Position numbers and translations under genes: made by a program. Source: Bacilli bacterium (lineage in GTDB: Bacteria; Bacillota_I; Bacilli_A; RF39; UBA660). Taken from it: a DNA stretch of 64,000 nucleotides. Every line of letters begins with the position of its first letter. The first letter of the stretch is position 1. The DNA lies in assembly GCA_017511375.1 (NCBI GenBank), contig JAFWKJ010000003.1, positions 1 through 64,000 of the forward strand, given 5' to 3'. Below are positions 20,930-31,472 of the stretch, in pieces. The notes under the pieces are model-generated. The model was not told the DNA's origin. It was given only the letters and a program-made list of their open reading frames with translations, and ran no database searches.

Positions 20930-21005
20930 GGGGCATTAGCTCAGCTGGGAGAGCGCCACGTTTGCACCGTGGAGGTCAGCGGTTCGATCCCGCTATGCTC
21001 CACCA
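20930..21005 (+). tRNA. tRNA-Ala (anticodon TGC)
   Basis: 76 bases. Acceptor stem GGGGCAT/ATGCTCC with one G-T pair, D arm with AGCTCAGCTGGGAGAGC, anticodon stem CCACG/CGTGG with loop TTTGCAC, T arm with GGTTCGATCC. The CCA end is encoded. A promoter precedes it and a terminator follows. Confidence 0.98.
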
Positions 21006-21234: not shown

Positions 21235-21298
21235 ACAAAAAAAGTGTGGTTCTTTCAAAAATATCGGAATAATATGAGTGGAGGCGAAAGTAATCACT

Positions 21299-23380
21299 GT
21301 GAAAGTTGTATTGCAAGATGGGATGAAAGACTGTGGTGTTTGTTGTCTCTTATCTATTATAAGGTTCTATGGAGGAGAAGTGCCTAAAGAATACTTAAGA
21401 GATTTAACAAACACAACCAAAGAAGGAGTATCCTTATTTAACTTGCAAGAAGCATCGAGAAAAATAGGTTTTGATGCCAATGGGTTAACTGGTAAATTAG
21501 AAGATATATCAGAAAACAATTTGCCCTGTATAGCCCATATTAATATGAATAATAATCGTAAACATTTTGTTGTTTTATATAAAATAGATAGGATAAAACA
21601 ACAAGTCACGATTATGGATCCTGCAAGAGGAAAAAGAACACTTTCTTTTTCAGAATATCATTTACTATCAAGCAATTATTATTTGTTTTTAAAACCCAAA
21701 AAGAAAATTCCCATATTAAAGAAAAAAAACATCGTATACCACAATATAAAAAAAATACTAATCGACAACAAAAAAATATTCATTTTCATTTTTCTATTAA
21801 CAACAAATTATTTCATATTAAATATTATAACTTCTTTTCATTTTAAGTACCTAATTGAGTACGCAATAAATTATAATGTATCCAATAATCTTTTAACAAT
21901 AAGTATAGGAATGTCACTTATATGTGTGTTAAAAAACTGTATGAATTGTATAAGGGGTATTTTATTAAATAAATGGAGTTCTCTTTTTTCTTTAAACATA
22001 ACAACTTTTACTTATGAACAAATACTTTTGCTTCCATATCTCTATTTTAAAAATAGAACGAATGGGGAAATCATATCAAGATTTCAAGATTTAAATACCA
22101 TTAGAGATTATATAACCAGTTTTTTTTCTACGATCACAACAGACTTATTATCTTGTATGATTTTTTTATACATCATGTGGAAATATAACAAGACATTATC
22201 ACTTATAGTAAATGGAATGCTTTTACTGAGTGCCATATATATAATTTTAATTGCTAAACAAAAAAGGAAACAAATTAAAAAAGTCAAAATGGGTGAAGAT
22301 GTAATAAATTCTTATATTATTCAAGGAATCAATAATGTAGACACTATAAAAAGTAGTCACATGGAAAAAAGATTAATTGATAAATTTGAAATAAATTATA
22401 AAGGCCTACAAGAAAAAGTTTATGAATATTGTACATCTTTAGAATTAGAAAAAAATCTGAAAGATAATTTAAAAGATATTATGTTATTACTTTTATATGG
22501 AGTAGGGAGTTACTTTGTGATTAGTAATAAGATATCATTAAGTAGTTTAATCATTTATCATTCTTTTGTAAGTTACTACAGTTCTAGTTTTTCTAATCTA
22601 TTATATTTAATGAGTAATTATCAATCCTTTCGATTAACATTAGATAGAGTAGAAGAACTATTTATGATAGAAAAAGAAGACTTTAAAAATAGTTATTTTT
22701 TTCTTCCCTATACCTTGGAGGGACCTATTTCTATCAAAAATTTAAATTATAAACAAGGAACGAAACAGTTATTTGATCATTTGTCATTAGAAATCAAACA
22801 AGGCGAAAAAATACTATTAAGTGGTGAAAGTGGTTGTGGAAAATCTACATTAGTTAAAATGATGATGAGATATATTCAAACGGATTATGGAGTGATTCAA
22901 CTAGCAGGAATCGATATCAATCATTATCATCTTCAAAACATAAGAACAAACATTACCTATATCACTAGTAATGAATATTTGTTTCAAGATACCATTAAGA
23001 ATAATATCTGTTTATACCAAGAAGTAGAGGAAGAAAAAATGAATCGAATTTGTGAAATGTGTTGCGTAAACGAGTTACTAAATAATAAAGGGTTAACGCT
23101 AGAATCTATTATTGAAGAAAATGGTTTTGATTTAAGTAATGGAGAAAGACAAAGAATCATTCTTGCGAGAAGTCTAATCAGAAATACAAACATTTATATT
23201 TTGGATGAAGCCTTAGCACAAATTGATATTCAAAGAGAGAAAAAAATACTAGAAGAATTATTTGATTATTTAAAAGAAAAAACAGTTATTATTATTTCTC
23301 ATCGATTTAATAATAAAAAACTATTTGATAGAGTATTAAAATTAGAGAAGGGGAAAATCATTGAAAAAAAGAAAATATGA
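21299..23380 (+). CDS. bacteriocin ABC exporter with C39 peptidase
   Basis: 693 residues from GTG 21299; the start is uncertain because GGAGG lies 14 bases away and GTG 21278 is the other option. The N-terminal C39 protease has the active Cys in QDGMKDCGVCC, the His in KHFVVLYKI and Asp in MDPARG; it cuts double-glycine leaders. About five membrane helices are seen by eye (residues 155-440; six are usual in the family). The ATPase has Walker A GESGCGKST, signature LSNGERQR, Walker B IYILDEA and ISHR. The enzyme trims and exports the peptides encoded just downstream. The accessory gene overlaps its end by 20 bases. Confidence 0.95.
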   Translation: MKVVLQDGMKDCGVCCLLSIIRFYGGEVPKEYLRDLTNTTKEGVSLFNLQEASRKIGFDANGLTGKLEDISENNLPCIAHINMNNNRKHFVVLYKIDRIKQQVTIMDPARGKRTLSFSEYHLLSSNYYLFLKPKKKIPILKKKNIVYHNIKKILIDNKKIFIFIFLLTTNYFILNIITSFHFKYLIEYAINYNVSNNLLTISIGMSLICVLKNCMNCIRGILLNKWSSLFSLNITTFTYEQILLLPYLYFKNRTNGEIISRFQDLNTIRDYITSFFSTITTDLLSCMIFLYIMWKYNKTLSLIVNGMLLLSAIYIILIAKQKRKQIKKVKMGEDVINSYIIQGINNVDTIKSSHMEKRLIDKFEINYKGLQEKVYEYCTSLELEKNLKDNLKDIMLLLLYGVGSYFVISNKISLSSLIIYHSFVSYYSSSFSNLLYLMSNYQSFRLTLDRVEELFMIEKEDFKNSYFFLPYTLEGPISIKNLNYKQGTKQLFDHLSLEIKQGEKILLSGESGCGKSTLVKMMMRYIQTDYGVIQLAGIDINHYHLQNIRTNITYITSNEYLFQDTIKNNICLYQEVEEEKMNRICEMCCVNELLNNKGLTLESIIEENGFDLSNGERQRIILARSLIRNTNIYILDEALAQIDIQREKKILEELFDYLKEKTVIIISHRFNNKKLFDRVLKLEKGKIIEKKKI

Positions 23381-23771
23381 GAGAATGATAGGGACCTTTA
23401 TCTTATCTATTGTGTTATGGATAGTAGAAATCATACTATTATTAGAATTTTTTCAATACAAAATCACAAAATATAATCAACTAACCATGATGATAACAAG
23501 TAAAAATGAGGGAATGATTGTAATAGAAAAAAAGAAAAAAAATGAATTATATAAGAATGCAACTCTCTATTGGAACAATCAAAAGATACCATATGAGATA
23601 TTGGAAGAAACAAAACTAGAAGATCATCAATATGTACAACTTCGCATAAAACTAAAATGGAAACAGAATAAAACAAATGAAATCATAAATATTTCAGTTA
23701 AAGATAAAAAAATAAGTATGGTGGATGGAATCATAAATAGTTGGGATGGTGATAAAAATAATAAAAGTTGA
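23361..23771 (+). CDS. small membrane accessory protein of bacteriocin exporter
   Basis: 136 residues from TTG 23361, with GAGAAGGGG upstream. One N-terminal membrane helix (MIGTFILSIVLWIVEIILLL), then an extracytoplasmic beta-rich domain of ~90 residues. It overlaps the exporter and the first peptide gene. The topology and place match short HlyD/LcnD-like accessory factors of class II bacteriocin exporters, though it is far shorter than a full membrane fusion protein. Function is inferred from context. Confidence 0.7.
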   Translation: MKKRKYERMIGTFILSIVLWIVEIILLLEFFQYKITKYNQLTMMITSKNEGMIVIEKKKKNELYKNATLYWNNQKIPYEILEETKLEDHQYVQLRIKLKWKQNKTNEIINISVKDKKISMVDGIINSWDGDKNNKS

Positions 23772-23904
23772 TGATACACAAATGGAAAAGATCAAAGGAG
23801 GTTCAGTTCCCTATGTTTGGATAGGAATTGCAGTCGCAGCTCTTATCATATTTTTATCAGGCGTAGTTGATGGCATTGCAAATCCAAAGGCGTGTGGATC
23901 ATGA
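23749..23904 (+). CDS. double-glycine leader bacteriocin precursor 1
   Basis: 51 residues from GTG 23749, too short for many gene callers. The leader is MIKIIKVDDTQMEKIKGG, with hydrophobic residues spaced as in class II leaders and GG before the cut. The mature part of 33 residues begins SVPYVWIGIAVAALIIFLSG, is strongly hydrophobic and ends with one Cys (KACGS). It overlaps the accessory gene and joins the next peptide gene through ATGA. The C39 exporter should process it. The weak ribosome-binding site suggests translational coupling. Confidence 0.75.
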   Translation: MIKIIKVDDTQMEKIKGGSVPYVWIGIAVAALIIFLSGVVDGIANPKACGS

Positions 23905-24074
23905 GAGAAATAAAAGAGGAAACATTAGAGGAAATAAAAGGAGGAGACTCCTATGTAACAGGACCAGTCATTAATGCAATTGTAAATATTATTAAGCTTG
24001 TCAGAGATGCAGGTTATGATTTGGGATCTGGATTTAGAAGAATGGCGGAAGGAGAAATATGTCCGTTAGAATAA
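23901..24074 (+). CDS. double-glycine leader bacteriocin precursor 2
   Basis: 57 residues from ATG 23901, which overlaps the previous stop. The leader is MREIKEETLEEIKGG. The mature part of 42 residues has an amphipathic helix (VINAIVNIIKLVRDAGYDLG), then SGFRRM and a C-terminal Cys, similar to lactobin/cerein-type class II peptides with a LGS-IRR motif. Paired with the hydrophobic peptide before it, it may form a two-component bacteriocin. That pairing is inference. Longer starts at 23892 (GTG) are less likely. Confidence 0.78.
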   Translation: MREIKEETLEEIKGGDSYVTGPVINAIVNIIKLVRDAGYDLGSGFRRMAEGEICPLE

Positions 24075-24217
24075 AAGAGGGGGTAAGAATCGCAAAAAAC
24101 GTTGTAATAACGTATATTACACTACCTTTCGTACCGTTAATCATTAAGTTTTTTTTACAAATTGGAAAAAATGTAGGTTATTTTATCAAAAATCTCTATT
24201 TTTTCGTTGTAAAGTAA
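24059..24217 (+). CDS. small basic membrane peptide, candidate immunity protein
   Basis: 52 residues from ATG 24059, with AAGGAGAA before it, overlapping the previous gene by 16 bases. It starts MSVRIKEGVRIAKNVVITYI and continues with one or two hydrophobic stretches containing Lys (LPFVPLIIKFFLQIG, YFIKNLYFFVV). There is no double-glycine leader. Small basic membrane proteins at the end of bacteriocin operons are often immunity proteins; a leaderless bacteriocin is the other possibility. Confidence 0.5.
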   Translation: MSVRIKEGVRIAKNVVITYITLPFVPLIIKFFLQIGKNVGYFIKNLYFFVVK

Positions 24218-24300: not shown

Positions 24301-24504
24301 ATGGCAACTAAAGTAACTGTTAGAGGTAATCTTGATCAAGCTCTAAGAAAGTTCAAACAAAAAGTAGCAAGAGACGGTGTCCCTTCTGAATGGAAAAAAC
24401 GTGAAGCATATGATAAACCAGGGGTTAAGAGAAGAGCGGCTAAAAAAGAAGGTATTAAAAATACGAGAAAAAGAGATAGAGCCAATCGAAGTAGAGATAA
24501 TTAA
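24301..24504 (+). CDS. rpsU: 30S ribosomal protein S21
   Basis: 67 residues. It has the S21 pattern: VTVRGNLDQALRKFKQKVAR, the WKKREAYDKPGVKRR segment and a basic tail. It binds the 16S rRNA 3' region on the small subunit. Ribosome-binding site GGGAGGG. In B. subtilis rpsU precedes yqeY, as here except that two surface protein genes are inserted between them. Confidence 0.95.
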   Translation: MATKVTVRGNLDQALRKFKQKVARDGVPSEWKKREAYDKPGVKRRAAKKEGIKNTRKRDRANRSRDN

Positions 24505-24541: not shown

Positions 24542-24569
24542 TTGACTATTGTACACGATAAAATATACA
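24542..24569 (+). promoter_or_regulatory. promoter of first duplicated surface gene
   Basis: TTGACT and TATACA with a 16-base spacer, just after the rpsU terminator. Confidence 0.6.
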
Positions 24570-24591
24570 ATTAATATAGGAGAGTGGTGCT

Positions 24592-25649
24592 ATGAGAAAG
24601 AAGAAAAAAACCCCTTATTAATCATAGTATTATTGGTCTTAGCCATAGGAATTGGTTATGCTTACTTAAATTCTAATCTAGCACTGAATGGTTCTACAGG
24701 AATAAGTGGTAATGAATGGGATGTGCATTTTGAATCCCTAACTTATACTAAATCTGCTGGAACTACCTGTACTCAAACTCCAAGAATAGATCCAAATAAT
24801 AACACAAAATTTATATATAATTGTTCCTTTGATCTTCCTGGAGACTATATAGAAATCACAGTCAATGCTGTAAATGATGGTACAATCGATGCCATGATTA
24901 ATGATGCTAGAGAGAGCATAAATGGAGTAGAATTTGGAGATGTCCCTTATTATTTTTTGACTGAAATTACATACAATGATGGGATTTTGTTTAATTATTA
25001 TCAAACATTACCAGCCAATGCAACTCATACCTTAGTATTCCATATGGGATATGATCAAAATATTAATCCAGATGAATTGCCAGATACAGATGACTCTGTC
25101 GATATAGAATTGGAAATCATTTATACACAAGCAGATGAGAATGCTGTTCCAAGGACACGTGAAATATATACATGCAACAACAAAGCACAGGATAACATTG
25201 AATTTCAAATTGGTAACATGATACCTGATAATGCTACAACATATAATACTCTGCAGGAATTAGTAAATGAAACAGGACAAAATATATTTGTAAAACATGT
25301 GATGGCAGGGCCATCAATCCAAAAGAGTATGGTTGGGATTATGATAGATGGAACTCCTCAATACATAGAAGGAGGAATTTATTGGGAAAATGATCCTCTT
25401 ACAGGAATGGAACGTCAAAATCCCAATAAAACTATACTCGAAGAAATGGCGTATGAAAATGGATGGACATGTGATTCAACAAGTATCCAATTTGGTTGTG
25501 GTATATTCAACGATGGCGCAAACAATTATATGTTAATTATAAATTTAAATGACGGACTTGCTGCCGTAGCTAAAAGAGGATATTGTTGTGCGATAGAAGC
25601 AGATGGAAAATCTTACTGTTTCGAAAACACACTAATTTTCGGACCTTAA
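24592..25649 (+). CDS. SipW-type surface protein, copy 1, frame broken at start
   Basis: About 353 residues if the frame is restored. The natural ATG 24592 has the same context (AGGAGAGTGGTGCT) as copy 2, but its frame stops after nine codons; the protein frame is reached only by adding one A in the A7 tract at 24604-24610. The rest is intact: hydrophobic signal (LLIIVLLVLAIGIGYAYL), NGSTGISGNEWDVHFE and a Cys-containing secreted domain ending IFGP. It shares its promoter layout and first ~55 residues with copy 2 but diverges later. It may be phase-variable, slippage-read, a recent pseudogene or a sequencing error. Confidence 0.75.
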
Positions 25650-25679
25650 ATGACAAGCGTTCAACAAAAAAGAACACAT

Positions 25680-25706
25680 AAAAGAACTGTAAATAGTTCT
25701 TTTTTT
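25680..25706 (+). terminator. intrinsic terminator of surface copy 1
   Basis: AAAAGAACT and AGTTCTTTT pair around GTAAAT, followed by T's; close to the rpsU terminator sequence. Confidence 0.85.
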
Positions 25707-25718
25707 CTGTCCGTTTCA

Positions 25719-25748
25719 TTGACTAAAAAGGAGAATAAGAGTATATAT
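25719..25748 (+). promoter_or_regulatory. promoter of second duplicated surface gene
   Basis: TTGACT and TATATT, 18-base spacer, placed after the terminator as for copy 1. Confidence 0.55.
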
Positions 25749-25768
25749 TAATATAGGAGAGTGGTGCT

Positions 25769-26830
25769 ATGAGAAAGAAAAAAAACACCCGATTAATCAT
25801 AGTATTATTAGTATTAGCCATAGGAATTGGTTATGCTTACTTAAATTCTAATCTAGCACTGAATGGTTCTACAGGAATAAGTGGTAATGAATGGGATGTA
25901 CACTTTGAAAACCTAATCTCTACAAAGTCGTCTGGGACCACTTGTACTAATTATCCAACAATTGATTCAACCGATACGACAACAATAACTTATAATTGCA
26001 CCTTTAATCAACCAGGCGATTACATAGAAATGACAGTAGATGCGGTAAACGCTGGAACAATAGATGCAATGATTAGCGACGAAATATTTCGAGTAAATGG
26101 AAATGATAATCCATCATTGCCATCCTACTTCGATACATCATGTAGATATGGAGATGGAGTTTTTGTTGATTTAGGACAGACACTACCAGCAAATTCCCAA
26201 CAAACATATAAGATTAGAATTACATATAATCCGAATGCATCAGAATTACCAACGACAGATCAAACTTTTAGTGTAGAAGCGGGATTAGTATATGCACAAG
26301 TCGATGAAAATGCAGTTCCACGGACTTCAGAAGTATATGTTGTAAATGATTATGCGGAAGATCAAACAGAATTTGTTATTGGTGAGTATTTCCCCGATAA
26401 TATTACTACCTATAGTAGTGCTCAGAATCTAGTGACAGCGACAGGAAAAACGGTATTCTTAAAGTTAGGACTTTCAGGACATAGGATTCAAACTACAACA
26501 GTGGGAATGATGATCAATAATACGGCGTATTACTTTCAAGAAGGAATACCAGAAGAAGATCCATACACAGGAAACTATCGAAGTACGTATTATGCCATCA
26601 ATAAAGCTAATATGGAAAATTGGAAAACTACAATTAGTTTTACTTGCGAAGAAACAAATACAGATAATGGCAAACAATATTCCTGTGCTGATAGTACACA
26701 AGTTAATCAGATTGAAACATGGTTATTTTTGGTAGAAAAAGGAAGTGTTTCTATTTTAAAAGAAGGAAATATATGTGCTGCAGGAGAAGGGCGTTCTTTA
26801 TGCACTTCTTCTGTTGATACTTTACCATAA
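25769..26830 (+). CDS. SipW-type surface protein, copy 2
   Basis: 353 residues, intact. N-terminus MRKKKNTR followed by LIIVLLVLAIGIGYAYL, a SipW-dependent type signal sequence, then NGSTGISGNEWDVHFE. The mature region has several Cys and beta-rich segments (GDYIEMTVDAVNAGTIDAMI, YAQVDENAVPRTSEVY). It is probably secreted or retained at the surface as a matrix-type protein. The last third differs from copy 1. No anchoring signal is visible at the C-terminus. Confidence 0.8.
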   Translation: MRKKKNTRLIIVLLVLAIGIGYAYLNSNLALNGSTGISGNEWDVHFENLISTKSSGTTCTNYPTIDSTDTTTITYNCTFNQPGDYIEMTVDAVNAGTIDAMISDEIFRVNGNDNPSLPSYFDTSCRYGDGVFVDLGQTLPANSQQTYKIRITYNPNASELPTTDQTFSVEAGLVYAQVDENAVPRTSEVYVVNDYAEDQTEFVIGEYFPDNITTYSSAQNLVTATGKTVFLKLGLSGHRIQTTTVGMMINNTAYYFQEGIPEEDPYTGNYRSTYYAINKANMENWKTTISFTCEETNTDNGKQYSCADSTQVNQIETWLFLVEKGSVSILKEGNICAAGEGRSLCTSSVDTLP

Positions 26831-29340: not shown

Positions 29341-29799
29341 ATGAGCAGTAACATAGAATTATTTGTTCAAGTAGAAGAAGAAATAGAAGAATTAGACACA
29401 GTAAAAAAGGTTTTAATGAGTGCTATTGAAAAAGAAAAATTGGAAAATGTTTCATTTAATTTAATTATTGTAGATAATAATTATATTCATGAGTTGAATA
29501 AGACATATCGTCATATAGATAGACCAACAGATGTAATTACATTTGCTTTAGAAGATGAAGATACAATTGTTTTACCAGGAAAGGAAAGAATCCTAGGCGA
29601 TATCTATATTTCCATTGATAAAGCAAGAGAACAAGCCAAAGAATATGGACATTCTCTTTTAAGAGAATTATCCTTTTTGGCAGCCCATGGTTTTTATCAT
29701 TTGTTAGGATATGATCATATGACAGAAGAAGATGAAAAAGTAATGTTTGCGAAACAAGAGGAGGTTTTAGAATCCTATGGAATCAGAAGAGAGAGTTAG
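29341..29799 (+). CDS. ybeY: endoribonuclease YbeY
   Basis: 152 residues from ATG 29341 (AGGAGG upstream). The zinc motif is in AAHGFYHLLGYDH, and RPTDVITFAL is a second family signature. It takes part in 16S rRNA maturation and ribosome quality control. It overlaps dgkA by 23 bases. Confidence 0.96.
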   Translation: MSSNIELFVQVEEEIEELDTVKKVLMSAIEKEKLENVSFNLIIVDNNYIHELNKTYRHIDRPTDVITFALEDEDTIVLPGKERILGDIYISIDKAREQAKEYGHSLLRELSFLAAHGFYHLLGYDHMTEEDEKVMFAKQEEVLESYGIRRES

Positions 29800-30199
29800 A
29801 GTAAAAGTAAAGAAAAGATTAGGAATTGATCATAAGAGATTAGCCAATAGTTTTAAATATGCATGGCAAGGTATCATTCAATCTTATAAAGGAGAACAAA
29901 ACTTAAAAATACATACCTTTATCGCAATCTTAGTAATTGTATTTGGTTTCTTCTTAAAGATTAGTTATACAGAATGGCTTACTTGTTTAATCTTAATTGG
30001 ACTTGTACTAATGGCAGAGTTTATTAATACAGCCATTGAGTATGTGGTCGACTTAGCATCTCCTGAGGTTCATCCTCTAGCCAAAGCAGCCAAAGATACA
30101 GCAAGCGCAGGAGTACTTATGATGGCCATTATTTCCGCCATTATTGGATTAATTATCTTTATTCCAAAACTAATTGATTTTATTGGAGGTTATTTATGA
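29777..30199 (+). CDS. dgkA: diacylglycerol/undecaprenol kinase
   Basis: 140 residues, integral membrane. A cytoplasmic N-terminal ~45 residues, three to four helices, and catalytic signatures MAEFINTAIEYVVDLASPE and HPLAKAAKDTASAGVL. In Gram-positives this family phosphorylates undecaprenol for cell-wall carrier recycling. It overlaps ybeY and, by four bases, cdd. Confidence 0.94.
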   Translation: MESEERVRVKVKKRLGIDHKRLANSFKYAWQGIIQSYKGEQNLKIHTFIAILVIVFGFFLKISYTEWLTCLILIGLVLMAEFINTAIEYVVDLASPEVHPLAKAAKDTASAGVLMMAIISAIIGLIIFIPKLIDFIGGYL

Positions 30200-30585
30200 T
30201 AGAAAGACTAATGAAACTGGCAGAAAACTCATATAGTCCATATTCACATTATAGGGTAGCAACCATTGTTATTATGAAAGATGGTACAGAGTTTAAAGGA
30301 GTCAATGTAGAAAACGCAGCCTATGGTTCTTCTATATGTTCTGAAAGAAGTGCTATTTTAGCGGCTATTTCAAATGGCTATAAAAAAGGAGACTTTAAAG
30401 AATTACATTGTCTATGTGCTGACAGTAACAGAGTAAGTACAAGCTGTTTTGCTTGTAGACAAGTCATTTCAGAATTGTTTGATAAAGATGTTAATTTATA
30501 TTTTTATGCAAATACAGGAGAGACAAAAGTATATAAAGTAAGTGAACTATGTCCATATCCATTTGGAGAGGATGATCTTCAGTGA
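30196..30585 (+). CDS. cdd: cytidine deaminase
   Basis: 129 residues. Zinc site: ENAAYGSSICSERSAIL and SCFACRQVISE, the tetrameric Cys-type Cdd seen in Bacillus. Start overlaps dgkA, stop overlaps era. It deaminates cytidine to uridine in pyrimidine salvage. Confidence 0.95.
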   Translation: MIERLMKLAENSYSPYSHYRVATIVIMKDGTEFKGVNVENAAYGSSICSERSAILAAISNGYKKGDFKELHCLCADSNRVSTSCFACRQVISELFDKDVNLYFYANTGETKVYKVSELCPYPFGEDDLQ

Positions 30586-31472
30586 AATGTGGATTTGTCA
30601 GTATTGTAGGTAGACCTAATGTTGGGAAGAGTACCTTGTTGAATTCTATTCTAGGAATGAAACTTGCAATTACATCTAATGTTTCAGGTACCACAAGAAA
30701 TGTAATTAATGGTATTTATAATGATGATGATTCTCAAATTATCTTTGTAGATACTCCAGGGATTCATAAACCAAATGATAAATTAGGGAATTTATTAAAT
30801 AAAAAGGCCTATAATAATACAGAAGGAGTAGATGTAATTCTATTTTTAGTAGATATTTCTAAAGGATTTGGTAAAGGAGATAGATTCATCTTAGAAAGAC
30901 TAAAAGAGAAAGGAATTCCTATCTATCTATTATTAAATAAAATTGATCTAGTAAAAAATAAAGAAAACCTATTAAAAGAGATTGATGATTTAAAGAATGA
31001 ATTTGATTTTAAAGAAATCATTCCAATTTCTGCTAAGAAAGAGGATAATATAAAGGTACTAATAGATTGCTTAAAGAAAGATTTGCCAGAAATGGATAAA
31101 ATCTATTCAGAAGAAGAATTAACCAATGTAACAACTAGATTTATTATGGCTGAATTTGTAAGAGAAAAAGTATTAGAATTAACACATGATGAAATTCCCC
31201 ATACGGTAACTTGTTATACAGAAAACTATGAGGAAGATGACCAGATAGTTCATATTCAGGTGTTAATTGTAGTAGATCGAGATAATATTAAAAAGATTAT
31301 TATTGGAAAACAAGGTTCTATGTTAAAAGAAATTGGTTCTAGAGCTAGACATGATATGGAAAAATTTCTTGGAAAAAAGGTATTTTTAGAGACCTATGTT
31401 AAAACACTAAAAAATTGGAGAGAACAAGAAAAGTACTTTATAGAACTAGGTTTAAAAGACGAAGATGAATAA
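30582..31472 (+). CDS. era: GTPase Era
   Basis: 296 residues from GTG 30582. G1 GRPNVGKST, G3 DTPGIH, G4 NKID and a C-terminal KH domain (IIIGKQGSMLKEIGSRARHD). It binds the 16S rRNA 3' end in 30S assembly. The order cdd-era-yqzL-recO matches B. subtilis. Confidence 0.97.
   Translation: MKCGFVSIVGRPNVGKSTLLNSILGMKLAITSNVSGTTRNVINGIYNDDDSQIIFVDTPGIHKPNDKLGNLLNKKAYNNTEGVDVILFLVDISKGFGKGDRFILERLKEKGIPIYLLLNKIDLVKNKENLLKEIDDLKNEFDFKEIIPISAKKEDNIKVLIDCLKKDLPEMDKIYSEEELTNVTTRFIMAEFVREKVLELTHDEIPHTVTCYTENYEEDDQIVHIQVLIVVDRDNIKKIIIGKQGSMLKEIGSRARHDMEKFLGKKVFLETYVKTLKNWREQEKYFIELGLKDEDE

Follow-up and report, generated by a model that had tools for sequence, protein, structure and literature searches.

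A near-fixed C39 exporter locus encoding a conserved, class IIb-like peptide pair and a look-alike third peptide in an RF39 bacterial family

The window analyzed here is a stretch of 64,000 nucleotides from a Bacilli bacterium, a gut inhabitant with a small genome (GTDB order RF39, family UBA660; contig JAFWKJ010000003.1, positions 1 to 64,000). It carries the gene of a C39-peptidase ABC exporter, followed by an accessory gene and three tiny overlapping genes, here called pep1, pep2 and pep3:

20930-21002: tRNA-Ala, upstream of the exporter
21278..23380, + strand: C39-peptidase ABC exporter (PCAT, 700 aa), matching PF03412 (111 bits), PF00664 and PF00005, with orthologues in the genus and the family
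23361..23771, + strand: accessory gene, 136 aa, with an N-terminal TM helix and weak similarity to NF045999
23746..23904, + strand: pep1, 52 aa, a 19-aa double-glycine leader and a 33-aa core (family alignments, pN/pS)
23901..24074, + strand: pep2, 57 aa, a 15-aa double-glycine leader and a 42-aa core (family alignments, pN/pS, family scan)
24059..24217, + strand: pep3, 52 aa, leaderless, candidate immunity or decoy peptide (recurrence after pep2, likeness to pep2)
24301..24504, + strand: ribosomal protein bS21 (TIGR00030, 51 bits; synteny), a conserved downstream neighbour outside the system
29344..31472, + strand: ybeY-dgkA-cdd-era cluster (synteny), context only, the downstream neighbourhood common to mycoplasma C39 exporters

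The accessory gene and pep1 overlap by 23 bases (counted from the GTG codon), pep1 and pep2 by 4 (ATGA), and pep2 and pep3 by 16. Translation of pep1 starts at the ATG at 23746 or at the next codon, a GTG at 23749, while pep2 starts with ATG. The initial annotation had described three tiny overlapping ORFs behind a C39 exporter, and all three are indeed present, with the leaders as read (ending MEKIKGG in pep1 and LEEIKGG in pep2) and a leaderless third peptide of 52 residues. It let the locus begin at 23749, where the GTG lies, but an ATG precedes it by one codon; it singled out the first and third peptides as being under 60 residues, a length that all three stay below; and its gene order was correct, but it did not mention the accessory ORF that separates the exporter from the peptides. 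Each mature peptide of the window has a single Cys near its C-terminus. In Rfam, nothing was found beyond the upstream tRNA. Inserted between bS21 and yqeY, at 24549-26830, is a tandem pair of paralogues that start almost alike at the N-terminus (LIIVLLVLAIGIGYAYLNSNLALNGSTGISGNEWDVHFE). The natural ATG of the first paralogue (about 24592, ahead of an A run) is out of frame with the remainder, which points to a frameshift, caused by slippage or by an error in the assembly.

The exporter contains a peptidase domain (DCG Cys, KHF His, MDP Asp), a TM domain and an ATPase domain according to Pfam. Against TIGR01193 (peptide cleavage/export ABC transporter) it reached 355.6 bits over the full length, below the cut-off of 523.85; judged by its domain make-up it is a C39-peptidase ABC exporter despite this score. 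Its match to NF045998 (Mbov_0121 exporter) was 305.4 bits, also below the cut-off (500), and synteny and the exporter tree put it near Mbov_0121-type exporters. The accessory protein matched NF045999 (MAG1140 family) with 17.4 bits across the full length (cut-off 35); 7 of 13 members matched weakly in this comparison. Aligning the accessory family with the mycoplasma accessories by hhalign gave no match, the mycoplasma set itself aligning poorly. A fold model of low confidence (mean pLDDT 57.6) suggests that the accessory protein consists of one N-terminal TM helix and a small, probably beta-rich domain. Gap analysis placed the gene in 12 of 20 loci from distant genera and showed it to be absent from the other 8; its linkage to pep3 was not significant (p = 0.17; 20 loci).

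As the ORFs are short, overlapping and situated in AT-rich DNA, we considered that they could be chance or spurious frames. With a model built from 24 diverse members, pep2 was detected in 268 of the family's 291 GTDB genomes, which represent 144 of 150 genera; among the 206 family genomes with a completeness of 90% or more, 196 had it (95%). When 395 genomes from across the class were sampled, full-length hits to the pep2 model were confined to the window's family, and the partial matches outside it fell almost entirely on the leader; the pep1 model showed the same family-restricted distribution. The order exporter, (accessory), pep1, pep2 was kept in 20/20 distant-genus loci while the surroundings varied; at L062, one of these loci, pep1 is separated from the accessory gene by other genes. 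A single-peptide contig scan yielded two loci. Within the window's genus the exporter was found in 32 of 39 genomes and pep2 in 31, both together in 31, and the sole congener with only the exporter stops at a contig edge. In the seven congeners lacking both, the YqeY orthologue was unassembled or located less than 600 bases from the contig start, so that these absences look like assembly gaps; gene loss was rejected for them, as the absence coincides with unassembled DNA.

Substitution patterns in the genus agree with this picture. For the cores, pN/pS was 0.40 for pep1 and 0.37 for pep2, and below 1 in all 351 genome pairs for each, by which measure both are under purifying selection; for pep3 it was 0.64, and below 1 in 100 of 105 pairs. 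The invariant GG, GxxxG and Cys columns likewise speak against spurious frames, which pN/pS and the presence in 268/291 family genomes refute for pep1 and pep2. By this sequence evidence pep1, pep2 and pep3 are real genes, and what is left for an accidental origin of the frames is negligible.

The pep1 core is a hydrophobic stretch of 33 aa, SVPYVWIGIAVAALIIFLSGVVDGIANPKACGS, with GxxxG and a C-terminal Cys, and the pep2 core an amphipathic one of 42 aa, DSYVTGPVINAIVNIIKLVRDAGYDLGSGFRRMAEGEICPLE, with GxxxG, RR and a C-terminal Cys. In a set of 88 unique pairs, 86 pep1 cores and 88 pep2 cores contain GxxxG. No partner in any of the 88 pairs lacks Cys, and in 73 pairs both partners have exactly one; since these loci were gathered with the pep2 model, the figures for pep2 motifs are partly built in. 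Alignments across the family revealed invariant or near-invariant GG, F, GxxxG, P and C columns in pep1 and GG, GxxxG, RR and C columns in pep2. The window pep2 fits the family-wide model with E = 2e-23. One Cys per partner is compatible with an intermolecular disulfide. Divergent forms were seen as well: at L133 (genome G082) pep1 has no C-terminal Cys and an extra GG-leader ORF follows pep2, and the loci of G203 hold more than one pep2-like match in tandem.

Comparison with known families gave near misses for pep1. The window pep1 scored 20.1 bits against TIGR03949 (lactobin A/cerein 7B), narrowly below the cut-off of 21.5, which the pep1 of several relatives exceeded with up to 32.3 bits; against NF038034 (lactococcin G-beta/enterocin 1071B) it scored 24.4 bits (cut-off 37). 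No above-cut-off family match was obtained for the window pep2 and pep3. Hits of a PDB sequence search were due to chance or covered the leader alone, the latter in PCAT1 substrate peptides and in carnobacteriocin B2. The fold model of pep2 was of low confidence (mean pLDDT 57.9), as were the helices predicted in it. The core strings did not occur in the literature searched, and the publications combining RF39 with bacteriocins concern other subjects, as far as titles and abstracts tell.

The third peptide has a cationic N-terminus and one TM stretch, followed by a G-x3-G-x3-K/R motif that resembles pep2. ORFs of this type (39-60 aa, one hydrophobic stretch, then G-x3-G-x2/3-R/K), starting 16 or 13 bases before the end of the pep2 stop codon, were detected in a scan of the downstream DNA after 42-43 of 88 pep2 genes, compared to 4 of 187 control gene ends. 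They are missing at roughly every second locus of the family, one clade of the window's genus among these, with pep1 and pep2 intact there, and several genomes carry truncated copies or have lost them. Conservation of all three peptides together with the exporter in relatives, which the initial annotation had named as support for its claim, was thus borne out family-wide for pep1 and pep2, and for pep3 in only about half of the loci.

A model of the pep2 core gave the pep3 sequences a mean of 6.1 bits and a maximum of 19.5, while 200 shuffles scored -2.9 ± 0.6 bits and none exceeded -1.4. The two families also aligned in register by hhalign (77%, E = 2e-5). The likeness sits in the C-terminal half of pep3, as can be seen at one locus (L088), where pep3 reads ...GKYIGTNIRYIAEGRIC and pep2 ...GRSLGTAIRRVAGNNLCPL. 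Going by these scores, pep3 looks like a pep2 core on a membrane anchor in place of the export leader. It is best read as a candidate immunity or decoy peptide, by analogy with known systems.

We also followed the history of the exporter. Mean identity within the genus is 54% for the pep1 core, 62% for the pep2 core, 61% for the exporter and 35% for the accessory protein, and the peptide cores evolve no faster than the exporter. Exporter identity tracks that of Era within the genus (r = 0.40, Mantel p = 0.0005), as does that of YqeY (r = 0.43); the divergence of pep2 does not track Era (r = 0.07), nor does that of Cdd or DgkA. Downstream of the exporter, ybeY (with dgkA, cdd and era where the contig reaches) is found in 20/20 long loci of the genus and in 6/20 distant ones. 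The same exporter-ybeY neighbourhood was present at 15/15 loci of two mycoplasma/spiroplasma-like, TGA-reading families (f4, f15) and of family f13, one of these loci (L178) having a split exporter gene, and it was absent at 5/5 other exporters of the class. The exporter tree, (f1,(f13,(f15,f4))), recovers every family as monophyletic, with moderate support (0.73) for the joint clade. From the correlation with Era and the tree, the exporter is inherited vertically; the shared neighbourhood together with the tree makes an ancestral exporter locus probable.

No GG-peptide was found within 14 kb around the f13 exporters (L177, L180-L183), each of which lies directly upstream of ybeY. The f4/f15 loci (L107-L110, L113-L118, L208-L219) hold a conserved GG-leader peptide, e.g., MEKLNTNQKREVVGGKGVTGALLNGIGSIAKGVSDLF..., unlinked to the exporter; it was present in 30 of 38 genomes of these families, and a C39 exporter in every one of the 38. 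These unlinked peptides are candidate C39 substrates. A second orphan GG-leader peptide (MRKLSDNELNEVEGGEAITITAIMAVLAVALVAVICYRLFMSS...GGFKFTW) occurs in f7 and f18 (L111, 5782-5970; L112, 1151-1330), flanked by radC and by what looks like a gene for valyl-tRNA synthetase. No GG-peptide candidate was said to exist for transporter 0401, the C39 transporter of JCVI-syn3A, and likewise in other mycoplasmas (PMC6609329); this transporter is a possible orthologue of the Mbov_0121-type exporters. Tentatively, and with the odds rather against it, the findings could be joined into one history, in which an export locus with a core function descends from the common ancestor of the window's family, the mycoplasmas and f13. 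Its cargo would be the Cys-bearing pair here, often with a membrane-anchored, pep2-like third peptide, and an overlooked, conserved, unlinked GG-leader peptide in mycoplasmas.

Class IIb bacteriocins are defined by two peptides that are both needed for killing, at about equal amounts, and a dedicated membrane immunity protein is expected to be encoded beside them. The locus has two adjacent genes for different small peptides, GG leaders with a C39 exporter, and GxxxG in each peptide, a motif considered common to class IIb peptides in general (PMC8538875). As the dedicated immunity protein, pep3 would be suitable in the window and in roughly half of the loci; the others lack it. We favour, with a probability of about 0.58, a class IIb-like two-peptide bacteriocin cassette that would have turned into a core locus of the family, with pep3 providing immunity by mimicry. 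The exporter would cut both precursors after GG and export them together, as leaders and domain suggest. Outside the cell, the hydrophobic pep1 and the amphipathic pep2 would pair as helices via GxxxG, perhaps locked by their C-terminal cysteines, and by class IIb precedent the paired peptides may insert into the membranes of close relatives and make them leaky. Translation of pep3 is probably coupled to that of pep2 through the overlap; because it has no leader, pep3 would stay in the producer membrane, where its C-terminal half may act as a decoy that engages pep1 or the receptor.

The idea of a new two-component bacteriocin, already raised in the initial annotation, thus gains from the GG-leader pair with GxxxG, the C39 exporter, the one-TM third ORF and relatives that pass TIGR03949, and loses from the sub-cut-off score of the window pep1 and the near-fixed locus. 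Bacteriocins are usually patchy, mobile, diverse and fast-moving. A nearly fixed locus whose cores evolve no faster than the exporter, and which often lacks pep3 while the pair is intact, argues against the bacteriocin reading, and the near-fixation makes a conserved non-killing role a serious rival. The pair might act on cells of the producer's own kind, as a pheromone, in controlled lysis or as an envelope or adhesion factor, or on a host, with pep3 tuning it, the bacteriocin look stemming from shared ancestry of leader and exporter. Such a role would suit the near-universal, single-copy presence (144/150 genera) and an exporter whose synteny and vertical descent extend to mycoplasmas and f13; the lineages, about half of all, in which the pair persists with no pep3 leave further room for it. 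A precedent exists in the Nap peptides of Neisseria gonorrhoeae, bacteriocin-like peptides that drive autolysis and for which antimicrobial activity could not be detected (PMC11798529). We nevertheless regard it as rather unlikely, since two GxxxG peptides with a small one-TM third ORF form the class IIb layout, the pep1 of relatives pass a class IIb model, and no gene for a sensor kinase or receptor was noticed beside the peptides in the loci read.

An alternative confined to pep3 takes pep1 and pep2 as described and sees in pep3 either a further membrane peptide, part of the complex or its anchor, or a duplicate of pep2 in decay. Its pN/pS of 0.64 indicates weaker constraint than the 0.40 and 0.37 of the pair, and copies are truncated or lost in several genomes; the recurring position, start register (-16/-13), TM stretch and GxxxG-R motif (about 42/88 against 4/187 in controls) speak against it, and we hold this alternative to be unlikely.

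The best reading is thus a new class IIb-like peptide family, encoded in a core locus together with a third, look-alike peptide. Near-fixation, vertical inheritance, synteny with mycoplasmas and the likeness of pep3 to pep2, all seen in sequence comparisons, go beyond the initial annotation. What is unusual is the near-fixation across 144 of the 150 sampled genera, together with the deep history of the exporter. As the family spans at least 150 genera and about 95% of its near-complete genomes carry the two-peptide system, most of these bacteria, small as their genomes are, presumably need what it does. Lineages lacking pep3, of which there are many, constitute a natural experiment. The exporter position common to mycoplasmas bears on a puzzle stated for the C39 transporter that the minimal cell JCVI-syn3A retains, for which no GG-peptide substrate was said to exist (PMC6609329).

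Among known systems, the Mbov_0121/MAG1140 loci of mycoplasmas (NF045998/NF045999) resemble the locus in that a C39 exporter precedes ybeY-(dgkA)-cdd-era and is often accompanied by a TM accessory, but the window proteins fall below both cut-offs and no peptide pair was seen beside the mycoplasma exporters. The TIGR03949 and NF038034 families align with the pep1 leader and part of its core, several relatives lying above the TIGR03949 cut-off; they differ in that the window pep1 stays below both cut-offs and pep2 passes neither, and in the conserved DG...P..C tail. Carnobacteriocin XY is likewise a class IIb pair with a tiny peptide encoded directly downstream of cbnXY, the 42-aa one-TM immunity peptide CbnZ, and BrcI, EnkIaz and AbpIM are further class IIb immunity peptides of 52-55 aa (PMC6957408). 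Unlike pep1 and pep2, CbnXY has no Cys (PMC10100652) and is not known as a fixed family-wide locus. Similar to the arrangement proposed here is gallocin A of Streptococcus gallolyticus (gllA2-gllA1-gip), with two GG-leader peptides and a small immunity peptide, GIP, encoded by the third gene, which was modelled as a mimic of the gallocin peptides and cannot be deleted alone (PMC10100652). Gallocin is quorum-regulated, while no regulator was seen here, and its peptides each form an intramolecular disulfide from two Cys, whereas one Cys each is usual here, so that the pair is not gallocin A-like in this respect. Immunity by mimicry was proposed for gallocin from structure models; the likeness of pep2 and pep3 adds natural evidence for it, based on sequence similarity across many genera.
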